A stretch of 64,000 nucleotides of DNA from Comamonadaceae bacterium (GTDB lineage: Bacteria > Pseudomonadota > Gammaproteobacteria > Burkholderiales > Burkholderiaceae_C), in assembly GCA_947447975.1 (NCBI GenBank), contig CANFLU010000008.1, positions 29,026 through 93,025 on the forward strand, in the 5' to 3' direction. Below, piece after piece: positions 4,194-21,787 of the stretch. The notes beneath the pieces were generated by a model that did not search any database, was not told the DNA's origin, and worked only from the letters and a program-made list of their open reading frames with translations. Both the position numbers and the translations under genes were made by a program. The first letter of the stretch is position 1, and each line of letters opens with the position of its first letter.

Positions 4194-4829
4194 TCAGTCC
4201 AGAGGTATGTCGGAGGAGGCGATTCCGCGAAACCGGTACGAGTGTGCTGGCCGCCCCAGTTTGCCGGAACGTGGGAGCTCGTCCGAAATAACAAATCCAT
4301 TCCTGACGAGGTAATCGAGGTAACGATGTGCGGTGGCGTAGGACATATCGCACTCGAGCGACACCGCATTGATCTCGACGGGCAGATCATTGGACCTCAG
4401 GTAAGTCAGAACACGCCGCATTTTCTCCCGCGAGATACCCTTCTCGGGATTCTTTTTGGAAGAGTGCAACTTGCGGTGCAGGCTGATCCGCGATAAGAAA
4501 TCGGCGAGATGTATCGGCTTGTTGATGAAATCGTCGGCCCCCGCAACCAGGAGCTCTTCGGCAACCTGCGGCTGTTGCTCGACGGTCAAGATCAGCACTG
4601 GGAGCGTCGGCGCGATCGCTTTGATTTGGCCCAGCACGTCAAGTCCGTTAGCGCCCGGCATGTGATAGTCGAGCAAGAACATATCGATATCTTCTTGCGC
4701 GACCCATGCCAAACATTGCTCAACTCGGGTCGTACCCAGGAAAAACCATCCCTGCGTCTTGGCCATGGCCTCCAGCGTGCACAAAATGGATTCGTCGTCG
4801 TCTAGGCCGCACAAGGTAAATGGCATCAT
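4194..4829 (-). CDS. Response regulator, CitB/DcuR-like (receiver plus HTH)
   Basis: Receiver motifs DDD, LLDYHMPGANGLDVL, K in FINKPI; C-terminal HTH-like region. Confidence 0.85.
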   Translation of the reverse strand: MMPFTLCGLDDDESILCTLEAMAKTQGWFFLGTTRVEQCLAWVAQEDIDMFLLDYHMPGANGLDVLGQIKAIAPTLPVLILTVEQQPQVAEELLVAGADDFINKPIHLADFLSRISLHRKLHSSKKNPEKGISREKMRRVLTYLRSNDLPVEINAVSLECDMSYATAHRYLDYLVRNGFVISDELPRSGKLGRPAHSYRFRGIASSDIPLD

Positions 4830-6229
4830 CGATTCTCTTCACTGAGCGGCAGCTGCAAACTGACGACAGCCCCTCCGCTCGGACTATTGGCGATCAGAAG
4901 GCAGCCGCCGTGATTTTTGGCCACCTCTTGGACAAAGGCTAAGCCGAACCCGGTCGAACCCCATTCGGACACTCCGCGAGAATCAGACGAGAAGGCCTCG
5001 GAAAACCCTGGTCCGCTGTCGATCACCGATAGCAGCAAGGCATGGCCGTCCATGGTTGCCGCCAGCCGTATCTCCTTCACTGGCGAATCCCTCACCGCCA
5101 AGTTGGCATTGTCCAGGAGATTGACAAGGGCTCTGGAAAGCCGGATCTGGTTGATGTGGATCCGCTGGGCGAGCACGCGATCGTCGGCCGAGACGGTGAC
5201 CGAGTGTCGCCAGTCGAAGGCGCTGACCTGGCTAAGGACGTACTCGAAGAGCGCCGACACGGGAACACGCTGGCGCGCCTCTTCCCTGAGTAATTCATTG
5301 ATCATCTGATTCATGTTGGCGCCGCCCCGCGAAATCCGTTCGGCATAGCGCCGCAAATCACCGGGGGACAGGCTGTCGGCGATGACGTCCGCCAACCCCA
5401 GGATGGTGGTCAATGGTCGCGCCAAATCATGAACCAGCTGCTGGACTTCGCGGTGGCTCCGGATCCGAATCGCATCCTCGCGCAGCGTGGCGATTTCAAG
5501 ATCCCTTTCCCGGATCTTCTTCAGATTGGCATTGTGTCGGCTGGCGCCGACCAACAGCGCGGCGGCGGCTCCTCCGCCGGCTGCCGCAGAAAAGAACATG
5601 CCAAAGGAAAGCGCGTCCAACACCCAGTCCCAGTCCGCGGCCAGAGCGAACTGTTTGACGGCCGACGACAGTTCCCCGCCGCCAAAGCCCCAGTACGACA
5701 GCATGGGGGCAAGATCAAGCCATTGCACGGCAAAGACCAGCAAAGCAATGACAAGCAAGCGGGCGATCCAGCCTTTGATCTCACGCGTGGTGATCTGCAT
5801 CACGACGACGGTGATGATGCTCAACACCGCAGGCGCACCAAAATGCAATGACAGGCCGCTCTGAACTTGGGAGAGCAGTGTGTAACAGCATGGGACGCCC
5901 GCCAGCGGAACCAGCCAGTAAAAACGCCTCCATCTGCTCGACAGGTGGCTCAGGCTTTCGCCTAGGTTGAACCAACCCACATACAAGAAAACCGCGCGCA
6001 AGGTGTTCAGGCTGACCAAGGTAGTTGCCGAGGCCAGCAGATAGCGACCATCGTCGTGCAGCGCGAACCGTTCTAAATAATAGAGGACCGCACTGCCGCT
6101 AATTTGCAGGGTCGCCAGCCAAAGCACGAGGCAGACCGTGCCGGCGGCCAAAGTGCGACGCATACGCCACCGAATAGGGTCAAGCTCAGTCACCGCCGCT
6201 TGCCCACCGGCTCTATGCGCCAAGCGCAA
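4826..6229 (-). CDS. Membrane sensor histidine kinase
   Basis: Multiple hydrophobic N-terminal segments, H-box VHDLARPLTTILG, N-box NLLDNANLAV, FGLAFVQEVAKNHGG; 4-nt overlap with response regulator. Confidence 0.88.
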   Translation of the reverse strand: MRLAHRAGGQAAVTELDPIRWRMRRTLAAGTVCLVLWLATLQISGSAVLYYLERFALHDDGRYLLASATTLVSLNTLRAVFLYVGWFNLGESLSHLSSRWRRFYWLVPLAGVPCCYTLLSQVQSGLSLHFGAPAVLSIITVVVMQITTREIKGWIARLLVIALLVFAVQWLDLAPMLSYWGFGGGELSSAVKQFALAADWDWVLDALSFGMFFSAAAGGGAAAALLVGASRHNANLKKIRERDLEIATLREDAIRIRSHREVQQLVHDLARPLTTILGLADVIADSLSPGDLRRYAERISRGGANMNQMINELLREEARQRVPVSALFEYVLSQVSAFDWRHSVTVSADDRVLAQRIHINQIRLSRALVNLLDNANLAVRDSPVKEIRLAATMDGHALLLSVIDSGPGFSEAFSSDSRGVSEWGSTGFGLAFVQEVAKNHGGCLLIANSPSGGAVVSLQLPLSEENR

Positions 6230-6256
6230 GCAGGCACGCGTATGCGCAGCCGCACT

Positions 6257-6802
6257 TCATTTCACACCCCACTCTTCGAGGGTCGCTCCCAGAACTGGTA
6301 CGGCGGCGCGTGGCGTTTCGACTTCGGTCAAGGTCACGCCGGGTGATCGGCCTCTGGTGAAGATACCGTCAAGATTGCCTGAGGCGACGACAATAAGTCG
6401 ATCGGCAAGTCCTGCTGTGGCCTCGATGAAAGTGTCGGACAGTTCTCCTCTGCGACGTGCCCCGCCGATATGCATCAGCAACACCCGGATGCCCTTTTTG
6501 CGGGCTTCCTGCAGCAGCAGTCTGGCGCGCATGCGTTCCTGATCCAGCGTGACGCCGGCAGCACCCAGGCCCTTGGAACTTGCGCCGACGACGACGATGA
6601 TCGCTTTCTGCGTGCCTAAGGCTTGCGCCGACAGGCCGGAGTTATAGCCCGGGTCGACCGCCATCCCTTTCATCAAGACCTTGACCAGCATGCCATCCGA
6701 AGTCTGACCAACCGAGGTGATCGTCACCTCCTCGGCACCAGCCACTGACGCAAGCACCAGCCCGCCCACGACCATCAGGAACGCACCAATTAGATGTTTC
6801 AA
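6257..6802 (-). CDS. DUF6305-like secreted protein (copy 1)
   Basis: Signal peptide; GASSKGLGAAG and HIGGARRRGELSD blocks shared with 12210..12770. Confidence 0.7.
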   Translation of the reverse strand: MKHLIGAFLMVVGGLVLASVAGAEEVTITSVGQTSDGMLVKVLMKGMAVDPGYNSGLSAQALGTQKAIIVVVGASSKGLGAAGVTLDQERMRARLLLQEARKKGIRVLLMHIGGARRRGELSDTFIEATAGLADRLIVVASGNLDGIFTRGRSPGVTLTEVETPRAAVPVLGATLEEWGVK

Positions 6803-7196
6803 GGAGCACCCTCCGCCTTGTTGCTAGGTCGCCATTGCGCAGCGCTAAGGCCCAGCGCAGCACCAGCCCAGCAGCCATGAAAAGCGCAAGAGTCTACCCT
6901 TGCCGGATCATGGGACTGGGCCAGGCCGCGGACCGAGCTCACCGCACCGCCAGGCACATCACCGCGCCCGTGCTGCGTTCCAAAACTTTCTTGGAACGCA
7001 CAAGAAAGCATGACCAGTATCGCGTTCACGCATTGATTGAAAACGGGGCAGTTGCACTACCCCAAACCGATCCACGGTTGTGGAAGGTCTTGTGTAAAGC
7101 CTCGTATTTTCTGAGCCTCATGCCCGCAGCACACCGTCTTTTTTGCCTGGTGATTCAATTGCACCAGAGCACAGTGGTATCGGCGTGCGCATCGCA

Positions 7197-10100
7197 CTAG
7201 AGTGCGCGGGTGATTTCGACGTAGATGAAGCGACCCACTGCGTCGTGCAAGGCACCGTTAAATCCGTAGTTCGCGGATGTGATCGGAGGCGCCTTGTCGA
7301 ACAGGTTTCGCGCACCAATGCGAAAAGCGGTATCGCTTAACCAGCCGCCGTCCTTGGCGATGCGGTACTGGGCGAAGGCGTTGGTCGTAGTCCAGCTGGG
7401 CACTTCATAGAAATTGCCGTTCACGAGGGCCGTGCCACTGTCGTTATAGGAACCGACGGTGCTTACGCTCATGCCCATCGTCACGGCGCCCTGGTCCCAA
7501 GTCAGGTTCGCGCCCCACCGCCAGCGCGGATTACCATCTTGACCCACAAGGTCGCCGGCCTGGGTGATAGTGATGCCCGTACCGAGTTTGCCAGCGGCAT
7601 TGGCGTCCATCAGCTTTTGCTGGATATCCGAAGGCGACTGGTAATATTTTTCCAACTTGGCCACACTCGCATTCAGACGGAAGCGGCCGTGTTCGGTGCT
7701 GCCACTGTCCATGGTGAGGGACGCGTCCCAGCCCTCGAGAGTGCGCGGACCTAAATTGAAGTAATTGTCATTGACGCGATCCAGGGCTCCAACGGTTTGG
7801 GTTCCCACCGGCGCCATACGTACCACGCTCGGGTTGGAGCTGCCTGCGAGGCGCAGATAGTAGTCATAGATCAGCTGGTTCTGGGCGCCCAGAATGCCGA
7901 TTACGCCTGTCGACTTGATTTTCCAAGAATCAAAAGTCGCACCCAGCCACTTGTAGGGCTGCAGGGCCATGCCGATCGAATTGGTCTCCGAATTCTCCGG
8001 CTGCAATGCACTGTTACCAGCGCGTACTTCCAAGGTCGACGCTCCCGCGCAGGTAGTGGCATTCAAGCGGCAGGACGCCCAATCGGTACGCGTATTCGAG
8101 ACCGAGGTGCCATCACTGTAAAACTGCGGCAGATTGGGCGCGCGGAAGCTCTCCGACCAGGAAGTGCGCATGCGAACGCCGCTCATCACTTCCCAAAGTG
8201 CGGCCACCTTGGGTTTGGCTACGCCGCCAAAGTCGGAATAGCTTTCGGCGCGGCCGGCGATCTGCAGGTCAAGCGATCGAACGGCCGGTACGGCCATTTC
8301 AGGACTGACCAGCGGCACGGCAAGTTCTGCATAGGCCCCAATAACCGAGCGGCTGGCACTAACGTCAGGCGATGCGCTGGCTCCCATGATGTCTGTGTCG
8401 TAAGCCCGGCCGGTGACCGAATCGGTGTATTTGATGGTGCCGTCCAAGCGACCATCGCGATCGTCTTGGAAGGATTCCCGGCGCCATTCGACACCCGTAG
8501 CCAAGCCAACATTGCCGCTGGGCAGGCGAAAGAGCTCCTGCGTAGTGAAGCGGCCATCCCAGGTAGTCAAGGTCGTGCTGCTGATCCGATGCACTTCCAC
8601 CAGGAAGGGTGCCATCGTGGAATACGGGTTGGCCGTGCCGTCCCCGATCGAGTAGTTGCCTTGCGTCCCGCCATTAAAGGGGTTGTAGGCATTGGCGGTA
8701 CTGAGCCCCAACTGCTTTTGGAACAAGGTGTTGCTGATCGCATTGTGGGTGTTGTCATCGGTGCGGGCGCTGGCGTATGACAAGGCACTTTCCCATGCGA
8801 ACTTGCCGATATCACCGCGCGCGCCCAGCAAGGCTCGTCCCATGGTGTCCGCCACAGTAAAGGTGCGTGGGCCGGTATCGACTGGCCTGTAGTTGGTGAT
8901 TCGGATCGGCAGGCCCTCGGTCGGCACGCCAGTCAGGTTGGCCAGGCGATTGGGGCTGGTGCTCGGCCCAAAGGGGTTCCAGTAATTGGAAGCGGGGATC
9001 GTAATCACCGCGCTTGAGATCGGCGCCGACTGCTCGCGCATGCCATCGAGCTTGGCCTGGTAAAGGCTGGCCTCTCCGAAAAGCTCGCTCTCACCCATGG
9101 GCTTACGGAAGCTGGTAAATGCATTGAGTCGCTCCAGCCCGCCGCGAATCGTACGATCGGGATTTTCGTCGTAGCGCAGGGCGCGCTGGGCGGGGTCAGT
9201 AGCGCTTGTGAGACCGCCAGCGCGCAAGCACAGCGTGCTGCTATAAACAGTACTCGAGCAAGCAGCGGCGGTGTTGCTAGTGGGCTCTACGTGGAAAACA
9301 CCAGTCGTCGTCAGGGCTGTCGTGCCCTGACGCACCAGAACCGTCGCGCCCGCTGGCGTCACCGCCGTGAAGCTGCCCCAGGGCGAACTGGTACTACGGT
9401 TATCGAAATTGGTGTCGCCCGCCCAGTCGGTACCTGCCATGAGCGGCACCTTGTTCTCGCTGGCAGAGAAAGCACGGTCGCTGGCAAGCAAGGCCGAGCG
9501 CTTGGTACCACTGATAAACAGCTGCACATTGCCGCCGTCACTGGTTTCCATGCCGGACTTGAATGAGAGGTTGGATTCGTCCGTACCGTTGGCTTGGCCT
9601 TTACGGGCCTGCAGCTTGACACCCTTGAAATCGGTGTCCGTAAGCACATTGACCACACCGGCTACCGCATCCGATCCGTACAGTGCGGCAGCACCGTCAC
9701 GAAGCACCTCCACTCTATTGACCGCGCCAATCGGGAGCGAATTCGTATTGGCAGTCTGCACGGGGACAAAGTTCTCTGTCTGCGTTCCCGGAGTCAGGAT
9801 CAGGCGGCGGCCATTGACCAGCACCAAGGTATTACCGGTACCAACACCGCGCAGGTTGATCGAAGCATTGTCACCACGCGCATCGTTCAGATTGCCCGTG
9901 GTGCGGGCTTCCTGGAAATTCACATCACCGGCTTGCGGCAACGACCGGAACAGATCATCCCCTGAGACGCTTCCAACGGTCGCGATCTGGGACGCGTCGA
10001 GAACAGAAACGGGAAGCGCCTCTTGGAGCCTGGCAATCCGCGAGCCGGTCACCGTCACGGCGTTTATTTGTCCCACTGCACCACCTTGCGATGGGCTGTC

Positions 10101-10202
10101 AGGTGGCGTCTGGGCCGGGGTCTGGGCTTGCGCTAGGCCATCGACTAAAGAAAGTACCGTGGAGGCTAGGAGGGTGAGCGTTGCGTAACGAATCGTCTTC
10201 AT
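7197..10202 (-). CDS. TonB-dependent outer-membrane receptor
   Basis: Signal peptide, plug domain (NLRGVGTGNTLVLVNGRRL, VNRVEVLRDGAAALYGSDAVAGVVNVLTD), long beta-barrel. Confidence 0.92.
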   Translation of the reverse strand: MKTIRYATLTLLASTVLSLVDGLAQAQTPAQTPPDSPSQGGAVGQINAVTVTGSRIARLQEALPVSVLDASQIATVGSVSGDDLFRSLPQAGDVNFQEARTTGNLNDARGDNASINLRGVGTGNTLVLVNGRRLILTPGTQTENFVPVQTANTNSLPIGAVNRVEVLRDGAAALYGSDAVAGVVNVLTDTDFKGVKLQARKGQANGTDESNLSFKSGMETSDGGNVQLFISGTKRSALLASDRAFSASENKVPLMAGTDWAGDTNFDNRSTSSPWGSFTAVTPAGATVLVRQGTTALTTTGVFHVEPTSNTAAACSSTVYSSTLCLRAGGLTSATDPAQRALRYDENPDRTIRGGLERLNAFTSFRKPMGESELFGEASLYQAKLDGMREQSAPISSAVITIPASNYWNPFGPSTSPNRLANLTGVPTEGLPIRITNYRPVDTGPRTFTVADTMGRALLGARGDIGKFAWESALSYASARTDDNTHNAISNTLFQKQLGLSTANAYNPFNGGTQGNYSIGDGTANPYSTMAPFLVEVHRISSTTLTTWDGRFTTQELFRLPSGNVGLATGVEWRRESFQDDRDGRLDGTIKYTDSVTGRAYDTDIMGASASPDVSASRSVIGAYAELAVPLVSPEMAVPAVRSLDLQIAGRAESYSDFGGVAKPKVAALWEVMSGVRMRTSWSESFRAPNLPQFYSDGTSVSNTRTDWASCRLNATTCAGASTLEVRAGNSALQPENSETNSIGMALQPYKWLGATFDSWKIKSTGVIGILGAQNQLIYDYYLRLAGSSNPSVVRMAPVGTQTVGALDRVNDNYFNLGPRTLEGWDASLTMDSGSTEHGRFRLNASVAKLEKYYQSPSDIQQKLMDANAAGKLGTGITITQAGDLVGQDGNPRWRWGANLTWDQGAVTMGMSVSTVGSYNDSGTALVNGNFYEVPSWTTTNAFAQYRIAKDGGWLSDTAFRIGARNLFDKAPPITSANYGFNGALHDAVGRFIYVEITRAL

Positions 10203-10273
10203 GGCTATACGGTGTTATTGAATTGAGGTCGGGCGGCCTAGGTCGCTCGGGCAGATTTCATTTTGGATCAAGA

Positions 10274-10317
10274 GGCCGGAGCTGAAAAGGCTCTCCCATC
10301 GGCCGCACCTTTTTTTT
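10274..10317 (+). promoter_or_regulatory. Stem-loop plus U-tract in the TBDR/GGT divergent region (possible leader attenuator)
   Basis: GGCCG-GAGC-tgaaaag-GCTC-tcccat-CGGCC, then GCACC and TTTTTTTT. Confidence 0.4.
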
Positions 10318-10403
10318 CTTTTATATTTTTTTTGTTTTTCACCGCGCTGATAAGCTCGGTCTGTAGATTCGGCTTGTACACGTGCGTTCTTTTAGGGGGT
10401 TGT

Positions 10404-12092
10404 TTGAAGCGAATATTTATCACCCTGTGGTCTCTCTTGGCGGCAGCCGGGATGGCCTGCGCGCAGACGCCGGTCAATCTCTATGCCCGTGACGCGCAGG
10501 GTAAGCAAGGCATTGTCGCGTCGGCCAAACCAGAATCATCCAAAGTAGGCATCGACATCCTGCGCCGGGGCGGCAATGCCATCGATGCAGCCGTTGCTAC
10601 GGCATTTGCGCTCGGTGTTTTAGAACCCAACGCCTCGGGCGTGGGCGGCGGCGGTTTCGTGATCGTCAAGTTGGTCAACATGAAGGACGCGGTCGTCATT
10701 GACTTTCGCGAGTCTGCGCCGGCCGCCGCCAAGGCAGATATGTACCCGATCGGTGAAAACGGCAAGGTGACAAACGCGGCCAACGTGATCGGTGGCCTAG
10801 CCTGCGCAGTCCCTGGCGACGTCGCAGGTCTGCTCTATGCGCTGGACACTTATGGCTCGAAGAAGCTGACCCGCGCCCAAGTCATGCAACCGGCCATCGA
10901 CTGGGCGCGCAAAGGCTTCATCGTCACGCCCAACCTGTCCAAAATCGTTACGGAGGAACTGGGCAAGATCAACAAATTCCCAGCGACCGCCAAGCTTTAC
11001 ACCAATGACGGTCTGCCACTCGAAGCCGGCGACACCATCAAGAACCCGGATCTCGGCGCCACCCTGGAAATGATTGCCCGCAAAGGCAAAGATGGTTTCT
11101 ACAAGGGCGACATGGCCAAACGCATCGTAGCGGCTGTTCGCGATGCCGGCGGCGTCATCACCGAGGAAGACCTGTCCAACTACCAGATCAAGATTCGTCA
11201 GCCAGTCACCGGAACATATCGTGGGTACAGCATCCTATCGACGCCCCCTGCAAGCTCTGGCGGTATCCATGTCATCGAGATGCTCAATATCCTCGAAAAT
11301 TTCGACATGGCTAAGCTAGGCGATGGCACGCCTGCATCGCTGCACGTATGGAGCGAGGCCATGAAGATGGCCTTCGCCGATCGCGCGAAATACACGGCAG
11401 ATACCGACTTCGAAAAAGTGCCTCTTGCAGGTCTGACCAGCAAAGCCTACGCAAAAGAGCTGGCCGCAAACATTGACATGAAAAAACCGATGTCCGGCGT
11501 CCAGGCCGGCGACCCGTCACGCTATGAATCGGGATCGACCACCAGCCTGTCGGTCATGGACAAACAGGGCAACATGGTCACCATCACCAAGACCATCAAC
11601 CATTTCTTTGGTTCTGGCGTGATGGTTCCGGGTGCCGGTTTCATCATGAATAATGAAATGGACGACTTCGTGGCCAAGCCCGGATCGGCCAACTCGATCG
11701 AACCAGGAAAGCGCCCCTTGTCGTCGATGAGTCCGACCCTGGTGCTGGACCCCCAAGGCAAGCCATTCATGACCATTGGTTCGCCCGGCTCAACACGCAT
11801 CATCGGTGCAGTAGCAGAGGTCATTTCAAACGTCATCGACCACCAGATGTCCATTCAGCAGGCCGTTATGGCGCCGCGCTTCTTCCGAATGCACTCTGGG
11901 GACTACAACCTCGAAGGCCGAGTTTCCATCAACACCAAGAACGCGCTTGAAGCGATGGGACACAAGATTGTGCTCAAAGGCGATTGGGATGCCTTCTTTG
12001 GTGGCGTACATGCCGCGCTGTTAGACCGCAACAAGAAGATCCTGTTCGGCGGCGCCGATCCGCGTCGCGACGGCTACGTAGAGGCCTACTGA
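10404..12092 (+). CDS. ggt: Gamma-glutamyltransferase (copy 1, exported)
   Basis: GGNAIDAAVATAFALGVLEPNASGVGGGGF, catalytic TTSLSVMDKQGN, GGADPRRDG; TTG start at 10404 preceded by AGGGGG and followed by a signal peptide (MKRIFITLWSLLAAAGMACAQ-like). Confidence 0.9.
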   Translation: MKRIFITLWSLLAAAGMACAQTPVNLYARDAQGKQGIVASAKPESSKVGIDILRRGGNAIDAAVATAFALGVLEPNASGVGGGGFVIVKLVNMKDAVVIDFRESAPAAAKADMYPIGENGKVTNAANVIGGLACAVPGDVAGLLYALDTYGSKKLTRAQVMQPAIDWARKGFIVTPNLSKIVTEELGKINKFPATAKLYTNDGLPLEAGDTIKNPDLGATLEMIARKGKDGFYKGDMAKRIVAAVRDAGGVITEEDLSNYQIKIRQPVTGTYRGYSILSTPPASSGGIHVIEMLNILENFDMAKLGDGTPASLHVWSEAMKMAFADRAKYTADTDFEKVPLAGLTSKAYAKELAANIDMKKPMSGVQAGDPSRYESGSTTSLSVMDKQGNMVTITKTINHFFGSGVMVPGAGFIMNNEMDDFVAKPGSANSIEPGKRPLSSMSPTLVLDPQGKPFMTIGSPGSTRIIGAVAEVISNVIDHQMSIQQAVMAPRFFRMHSGDYNLEGRVSINTKNALEAMGHKIVLKGDWDAFFGGVHAALLDRNKKILFGGADPRRDGYVEAY

Positions 12093-12209
12093 ACCGAGCA
12101 CCCTTGGAACGCATCCTCTGAGTAGCGCGCGATACCCCCCTCCGGGTCCGGCCAGTGACGGGGCAGAAACGTTCTATTTAAAACCGTTTTACATCGAAGG
12201 AGAATTAGC

Positions 12210-12770
12210 ATGAACCACTTATCCATTGCCTTTTGCACGCTGTTGTTCGCAGCGGCGTCCGCCAGTGCACAAACCCTCAACCTCAAGGCACCGGTCGCCG
12301 ACAAGCCGGCGCTACTGACGTCGTCAGGCCAAAGCGCCGACATCGAGATGGTCAAGGTCCTGCTAGATCGCGCCAAACTGCCGTACAAGATGGATGCCAA
12401 GATCGCCGCGCCGGCATTGGCCGGCGCCGGTGCCAAAAGCCTATTGCTGGTGCTTGGCGCGAGTTCCAAGGGACTTGGCGCCGCGGGCATTTCTGCACAG
12501 GGTGAAATCGAGCGAACCAATTTGCTGATCGCCGAAGCTAAGAAGCAGGGCATGAAGATCATCGGCCTGCACATTGGCGGCAAAAGTCGGCGCGGCGAAA
12601 TGTCAGATAAATTCCTGACCGATGCCGTGCCCGCCTGCGATTACGTCATTGTGGTTGGCGAAGCCAATGATGATGGCCTATTTACCAAGCTGACCGGCAG
12701 CAAAGTCACGCTCGATACCGTCGAGAAGATCTCCAAGCTTGGGGATCCGCTAGGCAAAGCATTCAAATAG
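12210..12770 (+). CDS. DUF6305-like secreted protein (copy 2)
   Basis: Signal peptide; GASSKGLGAAG, HIGGKSRRGEMSD; RBS AGGAG upstream. Confidence 0.7.
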   Translation: MNHLSIAFCTLLFAAASASAQTLNLKAPVADKPALLTSSGQSADIEMVKVLLDRAKLPYKMDAKIAAPALAGAGAKSLLLVLGASSKGLGAAGISAQGEIERTNLLIAEAKKQGMKIIGLHIGGKSRRGEMSDKFLTDAVPACDYVIVVGEANDDGLFTKLTGSKVTLDTVEKISKLGDPLGKAFK

Positions 12771-12894
12771 GCTGCAAACCCAAGACCACTGAACCCAGTG
12801 TCGCCCGCGGTGTTGGCTCAGCCGCAGTGATGAGCGCCGCCCGGGCAGGCGACCCGACCCCCAGCATTTCCCTCCCGCAATACGGAGTCTCCCC

Positions 12895-14172
12895 ATGACC
12901 ACTGGACTGCTATTCGTCCTACTGATGGCGATATCGCTCGTCGTCTTCATCGTTGTCGCCAAGTGGCCTGTTTCGCTGAGCCTGGTTGCGACGTCCATCC
13001 TCATCCTATTGCTCGCCGGTGACGGCGGCCTCCATATCGATAAGCTGGTCGAAGGCATGTTTGGCTATCTCGACGTGGGCATCGTGCTGATCGCCGCGAT
13101 GATCTTCATGAAGATCTTGGAGGCCAACGGCATGCTTGCGGAGTTGACCCGCCGCATCATCGTCACCTTTGGGCGTTCGCCGCTCGGACTGCTGGTCGCG
13201 CTGACTGTCGTCGTGATGTTTCCGGGAATGATTACCGGATCCTGCACCGCCTCGGTACTGGGTACCGGGGCCATCGTCGCACCGATTCTGGTCGAGATGG
13301 GATTGCCTTTGCTGGTTGCCGGCGCCTTCATCTCCAGTGCTTCGGTTTACGGCATGATCGCCCCGCCGGTCAACGTGCTGGTCATGACGATCGGCGGCGG
13401 CATCGACCTGCCTTACATCGGCTTTGACCTGCCATTAGCGCTTGTTTCCTTCCCACTGGCTATCTTGACCAGCATCTATCTGGGTCATCGCTACGTGGAA
13501 AAAGACAAACTGGCGCGGGTCATCGAACGCAGTCGGGCCGCTGGCGGCGAGGAAGGAATTGTCCAATACCTCCCGCTGCTCGTCGTCTTCATCCTGATGA
13601 TCGGCCCAAAGGCCTTCCCGCAATGGTTCCCGGACCCGCGGCTGCCGCTAACTTTCCTGATCGGCTCGGCGCTGGCGCTATACACCGGCAAGCGGATCAA
13701 GCCTTTAAAGGCCGCGCTTGAAGGCGTCAACGAAATTCTGCCAGTGATAGGCATCCTCTTTGGCGTGGGTATGCTGATCGAAGTCATGACGCTTACCGGA
13801 ATGCGGGGCGCGATTGTCGTCGGCGCGTTGTCGCTACCGGATGTTCTGATGTTGGCTGGCCTCGCCCTGATTCTGCCCATCTTCGGCGGAGTGTCGGTAT
13901 ACGGCGGCGCCAGCGTGCTGGGCGTCCCATTCGCGCTGGCCATGCTGGGCCAGAACCAAATTATTGTGCTGACGGCCCTTTCACTGATAGGTGCCATGGG
14001 CAGCTACATGCCGCCGGTGGCACTGACACCTGTGGTCACCGCCAAGTTGATTGGCGAACCCAGCTACATGAAGATCGCTCGGCTCAGCCTGGTGCCGTCG
14101 ATCGCGGCCATCCTCGTCGGCCTGATGATGATCGTCTTCGCCAATCCGATCGCACACTTTCTGGGAGTATGA
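12895..14172 (+). CDS. DctM-like large permease (TRAP / ion-transporter superfamily)
   Basis: About 12 hydrophobic segments; GMITGSCTASVLGTGAIVAPILVEMGLP and PPVNVLVMTIGGGIDLPYIGFDLPLAL. Confidence 0.75.
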   Translation: MTTGLLFVLLMAISLVVFIVVAKWPVSLSLVATSILILLLAGDGGLHIDKLVEGMFGYLDVGIVLIAAMIFMKILEANGMLAELTRRIIVTFGRSPLGLLVALTVVVMFPGMITGSCTASVLGTGAIVAPILVEMGLPLLVAGAFISSASVYGMIAPPVNVLVMTIGGGIDLPYIGFDLPLALVSFPLAILTSIYLGHRYVEKDKLARVIERSRAAGGEEGIVQYLPLLVVFILMIGPKAFPQWFPDPRLPLTFLIGSALALYTGKRIKPLKAALEGVNEILPVIGILFGVGMLIEVMTLTGMRGAIVVGALSLPDVLMLAGLALILPIFGGVSVYGGASVLGVPFALAMLGQNQIIVLTALSLIGAMGSYMPPVALTPVVTAKLIGEPSYMKIARLSLVPSIAAILVGLMMIVFANPIAHFLGV

Positions 14173-14318
14173 CTATGACGCTGACCTATCGATTGATTGT
14201 CGTGCTGGCGATTGTCTTGATCACCATGGTGCTGTTCACCCAAAAGAATTTGACCTTAAAGATGAATGCTGGGCTCATCCTCATTCCGCTCGTCATGCGG
14301 GCACTAATGATCGTCTGA
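14169..14318 (+). CDS. Small 49-aa membrane protein, not in supplied ORF track
   Basis: ATG at 14169 overlaps stop of permease (ATGA); translation MTMTLTYRLIVVLAIVLITMVLFTQKNLTLKMNAGLILIPLVMRALMIV; two hydrophobic segments. Confidence 0.7.
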   Translation: MTMTLTYRLIVVLAIVLITMVLFTQKNLTLKMNAGLILIPLVMRALMIV

Positions 14319-14336
14319 GTTACGGGAGGACCCCCC

Positions 14337-15554
14337 ATGAATGCACTATTCAAAGACCGCAAGAACCTGGTGGCCTCGGTCGGGGTACTGGCCCTCGTTG
14401 TCGCCATCCTGTGCGTGGTGATTCCCCAAGCGCTGACGATGCGCCAACCCGACTTGATCCACCAAGGCCCGGGCGTCACCGAGGTCCGCAAATTGTCGGA
14501 CTTTTTCGATGGTATCGCCGGAACAAGCGGGGACACCGAGGTCTACGTGCTCGACTCCGGTAAGCCCGGGGCGAGCGCACTCCTTCTTGGCGGAACGCAC
14601 GCCAATGAACCCGCGGGCTATCTGTCCGCTGTATTGTTCATCGAAAACGCGGTACCCGCGACCGGCAAGCTGTATGTGATACCCACCGCCAACGCCTCGG
14701 CGATGAGCCACACCGACTATATGGAAGGCACTCCGCGCAGGTTCGCGATCGACACCCCGGCGGGACCGCGTTCGTTCCGCTATGGGTCGCGCGCAACGAG
14801 TCCGGCCGACCAATGGCCCGACCCGGATATCTATGTGCACGCATCCTCGGGACAAAGGTTGTCGGGCTCAGAAACGCGTAACCTCAATCGTGCCTATCCG
14901 GGGCGCGTGGATGGCACCTTCACCGAAAAAGTCGCCTTCGCGATTACCAGCTTGATCCGCAAGGAGAAGATCGATATCACCATCGATCTTCACGAGGCCT
15001 CGCCCGAATACCCTGTGGTCAACGCCATCGTCGCGCATAACAGGGCGATGAAGATCGCTTCGATCGCCCTGCTCAACCTAGAGATGGACGACATCCCCAT
15101 CGGCGTAGAGCCGTCGCCAACCAATCTGCGCGGCCTGTCGCACCGCGAATTGGGCGATGCCACCAACACGCTGTCCCTGCTCTTCGAATCGACGAATCCT
15201 GCACAGGGCCGCTTGCGTGGGGTCATCAACGAGGCGCTGATCGTGGAGGGCAAGGACGAGATGTATCTGGCGGCGCACAAGCTCGGAAGGCTGTTCGTTC
15301 CTTTCGGTCCGCAAGGCGAACCACTCAAGAAGCGCGTCGCCCGCCACATCAGCACGACGCAAGCGGTGTTCGATGCCTATGCCTCCGAGATGCCAGAGCG
15401 TCATGTGCTTGTTGGCGCTATGCCGTCCTACCAAGAACTGCTGGACAAGGGGATTGGCCCTTACCTCCAATCACCGAAAACCGCTGCTGGTGCAGCGCCT
15501 AGGGCCCCGCAGCAACTCGCTGAGGTGCCAGAACGAAGGGGCCTGGCTCAATGA
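14337..15554 (+). CDS. Succinylglutamate desuccinylase/aspartoacylase family (M14-like) hydrolase, copy 1
   Basis: Zn motif GGTHANEPAG (HxxE), TIDLHEASPEYPV; N-terminal TM/signal anchor. Confidence 0.85.
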   Translation: MNALFKDRKNLVASVGVLALVVAILCVVIPQALTMRQPDLIHQGPGVTEVRKLSDFFDGIAGTSGDTEVYVLDSGKPGASALLLGGTHANEPAGYLSAVLFIENAVPATGKLYVIPTANASAMSHTDYMEGTPRRFAIDTPAGPRSFRYGSRATSPADQWPDPDIYVHASSGQRLSGSETRNLNRAYPGRVDGTFTEKVAFAITSLIRKEKIDITIDLHEASPEYPVVNAIVAHNRAMKIASIALLNLEMDDIPIGVEPSPTNLRGLSHRELGDATNTLSLLFESTNPAQGRLRGVINEALIVEGKDEMYLAAHKLGRLFVPFGPQGEPLKKRVARHISTTQAVFDAYASEMPERHVLVGAMPSYQELLDKGIGPYLQSPKTAAGAAPRAPQQLAEVPERRGLAQ

Positions 15555-15598
15555 CTTGGGGCTCCGCATCATGAATCAAGCTTATTAGGAGCTGCCTT

Positions 15599-17287
15599 AT
15601 GTATACGAATCGGAATCGGATTTATTCCGCGCTCCTTAGGCTCTTCCTCGTCGTCGGCCTTGGTGCAGGTCTTACGGCCTGCACCAGCGATCCTGGCCTG
15701 CATAAGGATCTTGCTGCTGTGGCAACCAAGATCCCCCAGGTCAGCGCCAGACATGGGATGGTCGCCTCAGCCCACCCGCTCGCCTCGCAAGCGGGCCTGA
15801 CGATCCTCAAGGCCGGAGGCAATGCCGTGGATGCAGCGGTGGCCACCGCATTTGCCAACAGCGTTGTCGAACCCAACGCGAACGGTCTCGGTGGCGAGGG
15901 GATGATGGTGATCTGGCTTGCCGACCAGCGCAAGGCCGTCGCTATCGACTACCGCTCGATGGCGCCCTTGGCCGACAAAACCGGTCAAAAATGGCCATCG
16001 TCGGGCCCGCTGTCAGTGGCAGTACCTGGTACGGTAGCCGGTCTGTGCATGGCACTCGAAAAATATGGAACCAAGAGCCTGCAAGAGGTTATGGCTCCGG
16101 CCATCAGGCTCGCAGAGGACGGCTTCGTCATCAGCCCCACCCTTTCGCAAAGTATTGCGGACGACTTCGGCGCCATCAACAAGGAAGCCCCGCTCGCCAA
16201 GATCCTTGCACCTGAAGGACTGCCGCTGGAAGCCGGCGAGGTCCTCAAGAATCCGGATCTCGCCAAGAGTTTGCGCAAGATTGCAGCAGGGGGCCGCGAC
16301 GTGTTCTACAAGGGCGAACTGGCCGATGCGATCGCTAGCGACATGGCGGCAAAAGGGGGACTGATTAGCAAAGCCGACCTCGCGGCCTACCAAGCTATTG
16401 AGCGCGATCCGGTGCGCGGGAGCTACCGCGGATTTGACATCCTTTCGGCGCCACCACCTGTTAGCGGACTGACCGTCATCGAGAGCCTCCACATTCTGGA
16501 GAACTTCGACTTGGTGAAGCACGCGCCGCTTTCTAAGGCTAACGTCCACCTGATTGCCGAAGCCCTGAAGCGGGGCTTTGCCGACAATGCCGAATACATT
16601 GGGGATCCCGCATTCGCCAAAGTCCCCGTGGCAAGGCTGCTATCGAAGGGCTACGCCAAGTCGCTCGCGCAAGACATCCCCCTGGACATAGCGAGCCGTG
16701 AAATCAAGGCCGGTGAGCCGAGCAATGAGCATCCGAGCACGACGCACATGTCGACCGCAGACCAAATGGGTAATATGGTTGCACTGACCCAGACAATCTC
16801 CGGTTTCTGGGGCGCGCATACGATTCCCGCTGGTACCGGCATCATCCTTAACAACGAGATGCAGAACTGGTCAAGCAAGGGACCCAATACCTACGCCCCC
16901 GGCAAACGCATGCGGACCACCATTGCGCCGACGATACTGCTCAAGGACGGACAGGTCTTCGCCTCCCTCGGTACACCCGGTGCCGCCCGAATCATCTCCA
17001 CTATGGTGATCCTTATTACCAATCTCGTTGATCACGGAATGACCATTCAGCAGGCAATAGAGTCTCCGCGGTTTTACACCCGCGAGTCAGAGAAGAATAT
17101 TCACCTCGAGTCCCGGATTCCAGGACAAACCCTCGAGGAACTCAAGACAATGGGCTACTCCACGAGCGTAAAGGGAGCGTACGACCTTTTCTTCGGCGGT
17201 GCCCAAGGGATCGTCGTCGACCCGAAGCGACACATTTTTACCGGCGGCGCTGATCCGCGCCGCGACGGCGCGGTACTGGGCTATTGA
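15599..17287 (+). CDS. ggt: Gamma-glutamyltransferase family lipoprotein (copy 2)
   Basis: Lipobox-like LTAC, GGNAVDAAVATAFANSVVEPNANGLGGEG, TTHMSTADQMGN, GGADPRRDG. Confidence 0.88.
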   Translation: MYTNRNRIYSALLRLFLVVGLGAGLTACTSDPGLHKDLAAVATKIPQVSARHGMVASAHPLASQAGLTILKAGGNAVDAAVATAFANSVVEPNANGLGGEGMMVIWLADQRKAVAIDYRSMAPLADKTGQKWPSSGPLSVAVPGTVAGLCMALEKYGTKSLQEVMAPAIRLAEDGFVISPTLSQSIADDFGAINKEAPLAKILAPEGLPLEAGEVLKNPDLAKSLRKIAAGGRDVFYKGELADAIASDMAAKGGLISKADLAAYQAIERDPVRGSYRGFDILSAPPPVSGLTVIESLHILENFDLVKHAPLSKANVHLIAEALKRGFADNAEYIGDPAFAKVPVARLLSKGYAKSLAQDIPLDIASREIKAGEPSNEHPSTTHMSTADQMGNMVALTQTISGFWGAHTIPAGTGIILNNEMQNWSSKGPNTYAPGKRMRTTIAPTILLKDGQVFASLGTPGAARIISTMVILITNLVDHGMTIQQAIESPRFYTRESEKNIHLESRIPGQTLEELKTMGYSTSVKGAYDLFFGGAQGIVVDPKRHIFTGGADPRRDGAVLGY

Positions 17288-17371
17288 TGCACAGCAGGGG
17301 AAGCGTCGCCTGCGGCGAGCCCGTCTGACCAGTATCCTCCGATCAGCCTATTCAAAGAGTATTTAAAGACC

Positions 17372-18451
17372 ATGAGAAGACGTACCGCTATATCCCTCAT
17401 TGGCCTGCCCTTGCTGCACCTGACAGCAGGCTGTGCCGGCGTCCGGTCGTCCGACCAAAAGTCTCCCAACGCTGCGTTCAGGACCGAAATGAAGCCGGGA
17501 AGCGGCGTCACGGCCCAGCGCCGGCTCTCGGAGTGGCTGCCCTCGCTCGCCGGAACGCCTGGCGATACCGCAGTTTTCGTCCTGCAGGGCAAGGAGCCGG
17601 GGCCCACGGTGTTCGTAGCCGGCGGCACCCACAATATGGAGATGGCGGGGGTCATCGCGGCGGCCATTCTCGTGGAGCGGGCGGTGGTCCAGCGCGGACG
17701 CCTCATCGTGGTACCGCGTGCCAACGCCTCTGGCGCAAGCTGGCGCGATCCCAAAGACCTTGGGCCGGGTCAGTACACCTTCGATACGGCGTCCGCCAAG
17801 CGCACCTTCGCCGTTGGCACCCGCCTGACGCACCCTTCCCATCAAGGTGAACCCGACCCCTCGAGCTACCTGCACCCGGACTCCCGGGAAAAGCTTCCGG
17901 GCTTCGAGATGCGCAATCTCAACCGCGCCCACCCAGGCAAAGCCGATGGCAACCTGACGCAGAGGATGGCCTACGCCTTGACACGGCTGATCGCAAGCGA
18001 AGGAGCCACGGTCGCGTTCGACCTCCACGAGGCTGGACCGAGTTCTAGGCTGGCCTGGCTGATCATCGCCAACCCCAAAAATATCGAGCAAGCCGCAAAC
18101 GCGGCCCTGGACCTGGGCGACCGCGGGATCGATATGCGGATCGAGGCAAGTTCATCCACCTTCCGGGGACTTTCGCACCGCGAGTGGGGCGACGCCACGA
18201 AAGCAGCGGCTTACCTGATCGAGACGCCCAATCCGTATCAGGTTTCCTCCTACGACGGTGATCATTTGCTCGACCCGCGGCACGAAGCGGAGTTCCCCCT
18301 GTGGATGCGCGTCGGGGGCCACCTCGAAGCCGTCATGGCCATCCTCCATGTGCACAACACGGACGTGGTACCCACGGCGCGTTTTGAGGCCGTCGGCGTA
18401 CCCAGTCTGGCCGAACTGAAGGCGCGTGGGATTGGCGCCTTCCTGAACTAA
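17372..18451 (+). CDS. Succinylglutamate desuccinylase/aspartoacylase family hydrolase, lipoprotein (copy 2)
   Basis: Lipobox LTAGC; GGTHNMEMAG, NLNRAHPGKADG, AFDLHEAGPS; paralogous to 14337..15554. Confidence 0.85.
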   Translation: MRRRTAISLIGLPLLHLTAGCAGVRSSDQKSPNAAFRTEMKPGSGVTAQRRLSEWLPSLAGTPGDTAVFVLQGKEPGPTVFVAGGTHNMEMAGVIAAAILVERAVVQRGRLIVVPRANASGASWRDPKDLGPGQYTFDTASAKRTFAVGTRLTHPSHQGEPDPSSYLHPDSREKLPGFEMRNLNRAHPGKADGNLTQRMAYALTRLIASEGATVAFDLHEAGPSSRLAWLIIANPKNIEQAANAALDLGDRGIDMRIEASSSTFRGLSHREWGDATKAAAYLIETPNPYQVSSYDGDHLLDPRHEAEFPLWMRVGGHLEAVMAILHVHNTDVVPTARFEAVGVPSLAELKARGIGAFLN

Positions 18452-18470
18452 GCGCAGTACCAGCGGCGAG

Positions 18471-19013
18471 ATGCAAGACTGGTCCAGACTTCGTGGTGCG
18501 CAGGTCCTCGCGTTTGCCCGGTCCGTCGTCGGCGCCAGCCCTGGCGGCCGCGCGGCGGCACCCGAGCTGTTCACCGCGGCCTCGGACGATGGTCCGGCCT
18601 TCGCGGAGGCACATGCCTCGATCCTGGCGATCCCCGCTTGGGCCGGGGCCATAGGCGCCATTTTCTTGCGCAAACCGCTGCCATCGATCGAATCCGGCAG
18701 GAGTCTCCCAGACCTGCTCGTGGCTTGGATCGAACCCCGGCCCCAGCCGGGGCCAGGCTTTCCGAGCCAACTCGCCCTTGACCTGCCGACAGGGCGCTAC
18801 GTGATCTCGACCTATGACGGCGAGAAGCGCCTCGCAGTCGGATCAGAAACCGCCTGTGGAACGCCGCTCTTGTGTGGGCCACCGTTCGACGGGGCGGCCT
18901 TGGCGGTTCTCGTCCGCCCCTGGCCGGGCCCATGGGATAAAGTTTTGGACAGCGCGGTCCACCGCCAAGCAAGCCGCCAGCCCAAGCCCTTCAGCATGGC
19001 ATCCCGCCCATGA
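18471..19013 (+). CDS. Hypothetical protein preceding pgsB
   Basis: Open frame ending in ATGA overlap with pgsB start; no family recognised; exact start uncertain. Confidence 0.5.
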   Translation: MQDWSRLRGAQVLAFARSVVGASPGGRAAAPELFTAASDDGPAFAEAHASILAIPAWAGAIGAIFLRKPLPSIESGRSLPDLLVAWIEPRPQPGPGFPSQLALDLPTGRYVISTYDGEKRLAVGSETACGTPLLCGPPFDGAALAVLVRPWPGPWDKVLDSAVHRQASRQPKPFSMASRP

Positions 19014-20155
19014 CCACCTTCACCATACTGGCCTGTCTGGGCTATCTGGCCTGGTTGGTTCTCGAAAATCACCTCGCGCGCAAACACAGAAGCGCTATTG
19101 GCCATGTCATCCATGTGAACGGCATTCGCGGCAAGTCATCGGTAAGCCGGCTAATCGACGCCGGGTTGCGCGCTGGCGGGTTGCGCGTCCTGAGCAAGAC
19201 CACCGGCACCTGCCCGACACGCATCGATACAAACGGCGTGGAAATCCCACTCGTGCGTTGGGGCAGGCCCAGCATCAAAGAACAACTGCGCATCCTGCGC
19301 CTGGCGGCCCGGCAGCAGGCCGACGTTCTGGTCATTGAATGCATGGCCGTCCTGCCAGCCTATCAAAAAATCAGCGAGGAACGCATGCTGCGATCAGACA
19401 TCGGCGTGATCACCAACGTGCGCCCCGATCATCTGGACGAGATGGGCGAGACGCTGGATGCCATTGCCGCATCATTGAGCAATACCATCCCCACGGGCGG
19501 CAAGCTGTTTACGGCAGACGCCGCCTATGCCGACTTCTTCGCCGAGCGGGCCAAATCCAAAGGGACCTCACTTGTGCTAACCAACAGCGACGACGTCCAC
19601 GGCCATGCCGTGGATTTCGCCGAGAACCTCGCGCTGGCGCTGGCGGTGTGTCAACACCTGGGTATCGACCGCGCAACGGCGCTCAAGGGCATGGCGCACT
19701 ACCGCCCCGACCCTGGCGCGTTCAGGGTCGAGCGTTCCGTCGGCAAGTTCGGTAAGCAGCTGGTATTTCTCAATGCTATGGCGGCCAACGATCCGGCATC
19801 GGCCGAGAAGATTCTTGACTGGGTGCAGGCGCAGGGGCTGATGGCCTCCGGACGCCGAATGCTGCTGATCAACAACCGCTACGACCGCCCAGCGCGCTTT
19901 CGGCAATTCGTCGACTTTGCAGTCCAGCACCAGGACCGCTTCGACGCCTTTGTCGCCGCTGGGGCCGGCCGGCTGCTATTGCGCCGGGCGCTTAGCAAGC
20001 GAGGGATTGCGCTGGAGCGGATCACGCGACTAGGAAGCTACGCCGAACTCTGCGCGCTGGAGCATGATGCGGTAGTTTTCGCCGTGGGCAACATCGTCGG
20101 CTCGGGGCAAGCCCGCTGGGGGGCGCACCCACACACCGGTATTTCACATGTCTGA
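19010..20155 (+). CDS. pgsB: Poly-gamma-glutamate synthase PgsB/CapB
   Basis: N-terminal TM, VNGIRGKSSVSRLI P-loop, SKTTGTCPT, VIECMAVLPAYQ, ITNVRPDHLDEMG (Mur ligase-like). Confidence 0.93.
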   Translation: MTTFTILACLGYLAWLVLENHLARKHRSAIGHVIHVNGIRGKSSVSRLIDAGLRAGGLRVLSKTTGTCPTRIDTNGVEIPLVRWGRPSIKEQLRILRLAARQQADVLVIECMAVLPAYQKISEERMLRSDIGVITNVRPDHLDEMGETLDAIAASLSNTIPTGGKLFTADAAYADFFAERAKSKGTSLVLTNSDDVHGHAVDFAENLALALAVCQHLGIDRATALKGMAHYRPDPGAFRVERSVGKFGKQLVFLNAMAANDPASAEKILDWVQAQGLMASGRRMLLINNRYDRPARFRQFVDFAVQHQDRFDAFVAAGAGRLLLRRALSKRGIALERITRLGSYAELCALEHDAVVFAVGNIVGSGQARWGAHPHTGISHV

Positions 20156-20591
20156 CGAACTGATCATCTTTGGCGTGTTGGCCAGCATGGTCTTCCTCGA
20201 ACTCACCCAAATTTCGCCGGGCGGGATCATCGTCCCCGGGTATATCGCCCTGTTGCTCGACGATCCAGTGCGCGTGGCCATCACGATCGCACTTAGCATG
20301 GTCACCTGGGGCGTGGTCCGGCTGTTGTCCGAGGTGGTCATCTTGTTCGGCCGGCGCCATTTTGCAGTGTGCGTGGTGGTCAGTTTCCTGTTGCGCTACC
20401 TGACCGGACTGGCCGCCTCCGAGGCCAACCTACCGGTAAGTACGGCACTGGTCATCGGATACCTGGTGCCCGGCATTCTGGCCCACGAAATCGATCGCCA
20501 GGGTGCGGTGAAAACACTGTCGTCCATGCTAGTGGTGGCGGTGGCGCTGAAGCTGGTGGTCCTGGCGTTTGTCACATCCGGATACCCGTAA
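20148..20591 (+). CDS. pgsC: Poly-gamma-glutamate biosynthesis membrane protein PgsC/CapC
   Basis: SPGGIIVPGYIALLLDDP and GYLVPGILAHEIDRQG membrane protein; overlaps end of pgsB by 8 nt. Confidence 0.92.
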   Translation: MSDELIIFGVLASMVFLELTQISPGGIIVPGYIALLLDDPVRVAITIALSMVTWGVVRLLSEVVILFGRRHFAVCVVVSFLLRYLTGLAASEANLPVSTALVIGYLVPGILAHEIDRQGAVKTLSSMLVVAVALKLVVLAFVTSGYP

Positions 20592-20599
20592 GTTCCAGC

Positions 20600-21697
20600 A
20601 TGGCCACATGGACTCAAGGCTTTGAACGACGCGATGGACTATTGATCGCTGCGGCGGTAACACTCTATGTGGGGTACCTGTGTCTCGGGCATTTCAGTTC
20701 GGAGTCCCCATCGCCATGGTACGAAAAAAAATTAGCGGCATCACGCCTGGCGCAACAGGGAATGGCTGCCGTCAAACGCGAAAAGCGTGCACGCGGCATC
20801 TCGATCGATCGTGTCTCCGACGTCAACGAAACAGGAATGATAGGGATTCGCTACAGCGGCATGACGACGACCCTGGGCGTGCTCGAAGCCAAGCGAACTT
20901 CGACGCAGCCGGATTTTGCGGCGCTTGCCGTCGATCTCCTGCAGCAATGTGGCGCGCAGGACGGCGATCGCATCGCCGTGAACCTATCTGGATCGTTTCC
21001 GGCCCTCGGAATTTCCGTCCTGAGTGCGGCGCAGGTCATGCACCTGCGCGCCGTCGTGATTGCCTCGCTCGGCGCTTCGATGTGGGGCGCTAACGACCCT
21101 CGCTTTACCTGGTTGGACATGGTCCAGGCCATCCACGATACAACAGAGATCCGCACCCAGATGGCAGCAGTTTCGCTCGGCGGCGCCGGCGATGCCGGCC
21201 ATGATATGGACGACGAAATCCGCGAGCAGCTTCGAGCCCACATCAAGGCCAGCGCGATTCCATTGATCGAGGAGGTAGATTTTGAAAGCAACATCGCACA
21301 GCGAATGGCGCTGTATCTTGCCGGCGGCACCCCGGTCTGCTTTGTCAACGTCGGCGGGAACCTCGCTTCGGGTGGTGCGAAAGGCGACTATGGCGCGCTG
21401 CATCCAGGCCTCATCGGCTCCCAGGCTGCGTCTTCAGCAGGAACCGCCGGACTGATCGGTGCATTTCTTGAGCGCAAGGTTCCTGTCATTCACCTGCTCG
21501 ACATGAAGGCATTGGCATTGTTGGCCGGTTTGCCCTACGACCCGGTACCGGTTCCCGAACCCGGCAGCGGCGGCATCTTCCGCTCCCAACATTACAACCG
21601 CGCTTACATCATCGCACTGCTGGCCGTGGCCGCATCCTTGCTAGCGGCCTACGTTGGGATGGGGCGGCCGCGCAAGATAGTGTCGCCGATGCGCTAG
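20600..21697 (+). CDS. pgsW: Poly-gamma-glutamate system protein (PgsW-like)
   Basis: MATWTQGFERRDGLLIAAAVTLYVG; N- and C-terminal TM; follows pgsC directly; matches 'poly-gamma-glutamate system protein' type. Start at 20600, 77 codons inside the listed ORF. Confidence 0.8.
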   Translation: MATWTQGFERRDGLLIAAAVTLYVGYLCLGHFSSESPSPWYEKKLAASRLAQQGMAAVKREKRARGISIDRVSDVNETGMIGIRYSGMTTTLGVLEAKRTSTQPDFAALAVDLLQQCGAQDGDRIAVNLSGSFPALGISVLSAAQVMHLRAVVIASLGASMWGANDPRFTWLDMVQAIHDTTEIRTQMAAVSLGGAGDAGHDMDDEIREQLRAHIKASAIPLIEEVDFESNIAQRMALYLAGGTPVCFVNVGGNLASGGAKGDYGALHPGLIGSQAASSAGTAGLIGAFLERKVPVIHLLDMKALALLAGLPYDPVPVPEPGSGGIFRSQHYNRAYIIALLAVAASLLAAYVGMGRPRKIVSPMR

Positions 21698-21787
21698 CGA
21701 AAACGCAAGGCGAAGTGGCTGCGGTATTGAACCGCTTTTTTATTAAAGCGCGAGTTTCTATACTCGTTTGATCAACCTGGAGTCGTG

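Follow-up and report, generated by a model that had tools for sequence, protein, structure and literature searches.

Polyglutamate systems described so far and the locus under study

Poly-gamma-glutamate (PGA) has been studied almost solely as the capsule of Bacillus or as an industrial polymer. The Bacillus PgsBCA/CapBCADE systems combine PgsB and PgsC with PgsA/CapA, a gamma-glutamyltransferase (GGT) family enzyme (CapD) and the tiny protein PgsE/CapE. PgsB and PgsC were previously known from hundreds of species in most phyla (PMC4497714, PMC5542703), and their presence in Gram-negative bacteria is established; no description of a cycle of making, trimming and reimporting the polymer was found for the Bacillus capsule. 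Another arrangement, the PgsBCW loci recognized by TIGR04332, includes capBCA of Francisella, whose CapA is also annotated as 'poly-gamma-glutamate system protein' (PMC4688374, PMC5362203). Here we analyzed a PGA locus at positions 4194-21697 of a 64,000-nucleotide stretch, called the window below, from the 3.03 Mb draft genome of a Comamonadaceae bacterium.

The locus shares PgsB and PgsC equivalogs and a GGT-family enzyme with the Bacillus operons and the PgsB-PgsC-PgsW order with Francisella. It differs from the former in having PgsW for PgsA/CapA, and in the addition of DUF6305 proteins, a DctM-like permease, a microprotein, M14-type zinc hydrolases and a two-component system. The plus strand encodes, in order, GGT1, DUF6305a, the permease, a 49-codon gene, M14a, GGT2, M14b, a 180-amino-acid protein, PgsB, PgsC and PgsW. 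The minus strand carries a TonB-dependent receptor and, past a terminator-like stem (7064-7044), DUF6305b, a histidine kinase and a response regulator. An earlier note, made from the sequence alone, had placed PgsB, PgsC, a PgsW-like protein, two GGTs, two M14 enzymes, two DUF6305 proteins, the permease, the receptor and the two-component system here, and all were found as placed, with the curated cut-offs passed. Two of these families are rare: DUF6305 was above cut-off in only one of 398 sampled Pseudomonadota genomes and PgsW in two of 300 sampled genomes of the host's order, so that their joint occurrence is far beyond chance.

PgsB, the ligase of the PGA synthase (19010..20155; TIGR04012, 369.5 bits, cut-off 222.7), and PgsC (20148..20591; TIGR04011, 126.7 bits, cut-off 96.45; PF14102) are encoded by adjacent reading frames overlapping by 8 bp. 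They are adjoined by PgsW (20597..21697, probably starting at ATG 20597; TIGR04332, 331 bits, cut-off 100), which defines the locus as the PgsBCW type. PgsA/CapA (PF09587) was not present in the locus; the genome has a single PF09587 (PGA_cap, CapA-like) gene, located on a different contig (G000:C1:216092-216796), and 15 of 34 genomes searched had no PF09587 gene anywhere. PgsW therefore probably substitutes for PgsA/CapA. Its predicted fold is an alpha/beta domain flanked by two terminal helices (pLDDT 92), for which Foldseek returned no specific PDB relative (none at E<0.001), and its profile matched nothing below E 0.1 among PDB sequences. From the families of the synthase genes, we infer that the product of the locus is gamma-linked polyglutamate.

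Association of the accessory genes with PgsBCW

Scanning 84,980 species genomes with a DUF6305 profile yielded 56 loci. Neighbors were examined in 57 loci, many on contigs that end early, with L007 and L039 representing one Burkholderiales locus. A GGT gene was found near DUF6305 in 48 of them, M14 in 47, DctM in 44 and PgsB in 28. For the 28 loci flanked by 5 kb in both directions, the counts were 26 for GGT, 26 for M14, 22 for DctM and eight for complete PgsBCW. Where PgsBCW was not beside the first DUF6305 copy, it was usually located elsewhere in the same genome; PgsW was detected in 39 of 42 DUF6305 genomes, compared to none of 14 control genomes. Seven of 13 such PgsW regions from other genomes (L142-L146, L148, L149) had a DUF6305 gene near PgsBCW, along with DctM, and with M14 where the sequence extends far enough.

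As whole-order and class samples were too sparse for statistics, the 121 genomes of Synergistota were used. PgsW and DUF6305 were both present in 48 genomes, PgsW only in three, DUF6305 only in three, and neither in 67 (Fisher p 3e-26), the two thus occurring together in 48 of the 54 genomes having either. Conversely, seven of the eight sampled Spirochaetota genomes with PgsW had no DUF6305 anywhere. These results indicated that the presence of DUF6305 implies PgsBCW and that the converse fails. In those seven genomes (loci L153-L159), PgsBCW stood alone within 15-20 kb, with no accessory gene, forming a stripped-down PgsBCW class in Spirochaetota.

DUF6305, GGT, DctM and M14 were found together in many phyla, a gene set that is widely scattered yet strictly co-inherited. 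The co-occurrence of PgsBC with DUF6305, DctM and M14, on which the earlier note had staked its proposal, was mostly borne out, as conservation of the neighbors together with pgsBCW extends over many phyla; its description of the locus as Gram-negative was too narrow, the module being common in Bacillota. In the open-licence literature searched, we found no paper on DUF6305, no mention of pgsW, and no description of the accessory module, of a link between DUF6305 and PGA, or of the microprotein.

A plasmid of Cetobacterium somerae, a cultured member of Fusobacteriota, encodes on one strand HK-RR-GGT-DUF6305-DctM-47aa-M14-PgsB-C-W (HK, histidine kinase; RR, response regulator). The positions of DctM, the microprotein and M14 are annotated as TRAP large permease, 47-amino-acid hypothetical protein and succinylglutamate desuccinylase. 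All ten genes match genes of the window, with 33-57% identity for most, 23% for the kinase and 31% for the regulator. This finished record is independent evidence that the genes belong together. Cetobacterium also has, within its PGA operon, a pair of small chromate-transporter-family genes (L195:3849-4912) that separates the two-component system from the first GGT.

The association extends to the regulatory genes. The histidine kinase (4826..6229, minus strand; HisKA/HATPase_c in Pfam) has its own multi-helix membrane sensor domain, and a search with this sensor region alone retrieved the kinases encoded beside PgsBCW/GGT in Bacillota (E 5e-25 to 2e-13) and in Cetobacterium (3e-9). The kinase is thus a specific, co-conserved sensor rather than a generic kinase present by chance. 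Relatives of the response regulator (4194..4829, minus strand; receiver and IclR-type helix-turn-helix; Response_reg 75.6 bits, HTH_IclR 25.4 bits) also adjoin GGT/PgsBCW in Bacillota and Cetobacterium. The gene of the secreted DUF6305b (6257..6802, minus strand; PF19823, 131.9 bits) forms a tandem with those of the kinase and the regulator, an order kept in L008. The co-conserved neighbors and the shared sensor region argue for one locus of PGA synthesis, processing and sensing, as the earlier note had proposed. Its inclusion of the TonB-dependent receptor did not hold outside the closest relatives (see below).

The closest relatives with the locus were two Comamonadaceae metagenome-assembled genomes (L008 and L009). 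In the DctM tree, the Comamonadaceae sequences stood beside a Spirochaetota sequence (100/100). In the PgsB tree, they fell among Bacillota (95/94), that Spirochaetota sequence branching immediately outside, and apart from other Pseudomonadota carriers. These groupings make horizontal acquisition of the locus very likely, perhaps block by block.

Processing enzymes, the candidate carrier and the proposed function of the locus

Both GGTs score far above the cut-offs of PF01019 and TIGR00066 and keep the autoprocessing threonine motif at the start of the small subunit (TTSLS/TTHMS). The secreted GGT1 (10404..12092, plus strand; TIGR00066, 543.6 bits) has the nucleophile Thr426 and a lid segment of 14 residues, compared to 24 in E. 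coli; its reading frame is open from 10263, and the start is probably TTG 10404, preceded by AGGGGG. GGT2 (15599..17287, plus strand; 457.7 bits), a predicted lipoprotein with the lipobox LTAC in its translation, has Thr381 and a lid segment of 12 residues. The lid loop is thus missing from both enzymes, as it is from CapD. The GGT of B. subtilis likewise has no lid loop.

M14a (14337..15554; PF24827, 32.8 bits), predicted to be membrane-anchored, and M14b (17372..18451; 35.5 bits), a predicted lipoprotein (lipobox TAGC), belong to one family and exceed the cut-off of 25. Across 31 sequences, H88, E91, R185, H219 and E284 were invariant and N182, L183 and N184 nearly so, conforming to the active-site pattern HxxE...NLNR...H...E of AstE/AspA, a family in which the five invariant positions serve as zinc, substrate and catalytic residues. 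The family profile matched AstE/AspA-type structures and a secreted M14 group (4wck), which we take to be the Helicobacter shape protein Csd4, cutting next to gamma-D-Glu. The zinc ligands, the NLNR substrate motif and the catalytic Glu are thus shared with these enzymes, whereas the locus enzymes are predicted to be extracytoplasmic, membrane-anchored or lipoproteins, and the solved members are only distantly similar. Signal peptides or lipoboxes place both GGTs and both M14 enzymes outside the cytoplasm in prediction. PghL, a known depolymerase of PGA, likewise combines zinc with a carboxypeptidase-like fold (PMC6506827).

The permease (12895..14172, plus strand; PF06808, 39.8 bits, cut-off 23.8) is of the large-subunit type of tripartite (TRAP, DctPQM) transporters, and its family profile matched the DctMQ structure 9pym (E 4.7e-6). 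Unlike TRAP transporters, the locus has no two-domain DctP-like binding protein and no four-helix DctQ; neither domain was detected among the locus proteins scanned, and their places are occupied by DUF6305 and the two-helix protein. DUF6305a (12210..12770, plus strand; PF19823, 155.5 bits) is a secreted protein modeled as one alpha/beta domain (pLDDT 89). Its profile gave only marginal matches to dihydropteroate synthase among PDB sequences (E 0.01), which were set aside.

The small open reading frame noticed beside the permease proved to be a real gene of 49 codons (14169..14318, plus strand), its ATG overlapping the DctM stop codon (ATGA). In nearly all phyla, DctM and M14 are separated by approximately 150-200 bp, and this interval codes for a protein of 47-54 residues that has two predicted helices and terminates in a sequence resembling LRLLMIK. 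When a profile was made from the 25 copies in Bacillota, it recovered the protein in all 24 gaps from other phyla (E 4e-19 to 3e-5). Run against 10,223 six-frame fragments from these loci, the profile gave only 40 matches, at most two per locus, and the loci with two were those with two DctM-M14 pairs. The dN/dS values of the window against L008 and L009 were 0.067/0.63 and 0.066/0.87, a ratio of about 0.1, demonstrating that the microprotein is coding and under purifying selection. In Synergistota, it was found in exactly the 51 genomes having DUF6305. It belongs to no Pfam or NCBIfam family. Its likeness to PgsE/CapE is one of size only, as it has two helices and always adjoins DctM, not the synthase. 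The clostridial loci L025, L033, L034, L037, L054, L056 and L059 contain a pair of DctM genes, each accompanied by a microprotein and an M14 gene; in the tree, the two types of DctM fall into separate clades.

These features would fit the following scheme. PgsB, PgsC and PgsW would polymerize PGA and pass it out of the cell, where the two lid-less GGTs would act at the amino terminus of the chain. The M14 enzymes, anchored outside the inner membrane, may work from the carboxyl terminus and free glutamate there, as N-gamma-glutamyl-glutamate belongs to the N-acyl-glutamates and so does the substrate of succinylglutamate desuccinylase. DctM, with the microprotein replacing DctQ and DUF6305 as the extracytoplasmic binding partner, would act as a TRAP-like carrier returning glutamate or short oligomers to the cell. 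The second DUF6305, the membrane-sensor kinase and the regulator would report the pool; the tandem genes suggest DUF6305b as the sensor's partner, an arrangement often seen for binding proteins and sensors. We give roughly even chances that the locus is a dedicated system of PGA synthesis and turnover. As its enzymes suit the two chain ends and a carrier accompanies them, its best reading, held with about half of full confidence, is that the cell processes its own polymer and takes it up again. The more specific proposal, in which DUF6305, the microprotein of about 48 residues and DctM form a new three-part carrier for gamma-glutamyl oligomers, giving PGA producers in many phyla a regulated make-trim-reimport cycle with PGA as an extracellular glutamate store beyond the capsule, is plausible at somewhat less than even probability. 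The earlier note had suggested recycling or scavenging. Since the transport module is hardly ever seen in a genome lacking PgsBCW, we rejected uptake of polymer from other organisms as its main function; recycling of the cell's own product stands as a conjecture.

Several points weigh against this reading. The evidence from these loci consists of sequences and models, and a cycle of making and degrading is wasteful unless regulated. DUF6305 is too small for a classical TRAP binding protein, and Foldseek against PDB returned only generic Rossmann-like proteins for its model (TM at most about 0.5). The microprotein has two predicted helices versus four in TRAP small subunits. Moreover, the seven Spirochaetota genomes indicate that PgsBCW does not require the module.

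The same genes could instead serve capsule maturation and anchoring, CapD-like GGTs cutting PGA and transferring it to an envelope acceptor, M14 enzymes trimming it and the permease exchanging ions or a synthesis substrate, with no recycling. CapD is indeed among the structural relatives of both GGTs (large chain, E 6e-42 and 3e-46), and the lipoprotein-like GGT2 and M14b are placed for envelope work. The nearest solved relatives of both, however, are the GGTs of E. coli and other ordinary GGTs, with CapD well behind, and anchoring needs no TRAP-type permease with a partner, yet this pair is among the most strictly conserved neighbors. We consider this account unlikely, while ranking it first among the alternatives. 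A supply of substrate, in which DUF6305, DctM and the microprotein import glutamate or a dicarboxylate for PgsB and the GGT and M14 enzymes free glutamate from glutathione or other gamma-glutamyl compounds in the surroundings, would agree with the near-constant company of module and synthase. It would also agree with the organic acids, N-acyl or amino acids that TRAP carriers typically import. As it requires neither two enzyme types fitting both gamma-glutamyl chain ends nor a permease-hydrolase pair kept in nearly every phylum, it appears quite improbable. Least probable is that PgsBCW makes another gamma-glutamylated molecule or a small signaling or stress polymer instead of a PGA capsule. 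The homologous capBCA of Francisella was reported not to be involved in capsule production of LVS (PMC4688374, PMC5362203), whereas Fusobacterium nucleatum is a reported polyglutamate maker (Candela 2009, as cited in passages of PMC3815933 and PMC4497714), tied to the module through Cetobacterium by family only.

If trimming and re-import are correct, these loci would constitute a second class of PGA systems, present in at least eight phyla with its own hydrolases, carrier and sensor, and PGA may serve anaerobic and environmental bacteria as a store for reuse. DUF6305, a domain of unknown function, gains a PGA context, and the microprotein family, missing from the libraries searched, may provide a TRAP-type carrier with a minimal subunit.

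The TonB-dependent receptor and neighboring genes

The TonB-dependent receptor (7197..10202, minus strand; Plug and barrel domains of Pfam) had close homologues only in the Comamonadaceae relatives L008 and L009. Apart from a weak generic match in L050, it was absent from all other loci, including the Burkholderiales locus L007. It was thus rejected as a core part and regarded as a lineage-specific addition.

A GC stem followed by a T run (21721..21735, plus strand) possibly ends the run from GGT1 to PgsW; this call is weak, as terminator-like sites in the region were no commoner than in shuffled sequences. A PADLOC scan of defence systems returned nothing, so no defence role is indicated.

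The 180-amino-acid protein (18471..19013, plus strand) had no Pfam match. Its homologues lie immediately behind M14b in the Comamonadaceae and five Spirochaetota loci, and its second half closes with a conserved LPxGRY...GVEIA...GPP pattern. Just downstream of PgsW, an FAD-dependent D-amino-acid-dehydrogenase-like gene (21785-23014) was observed, as in L009; its product could act on D-Glu. The remainder of the window reads, from the translations of its open reading frames, as ordinary chromosomal genes, including type II secretion-like and sugar ABC transporter genes.

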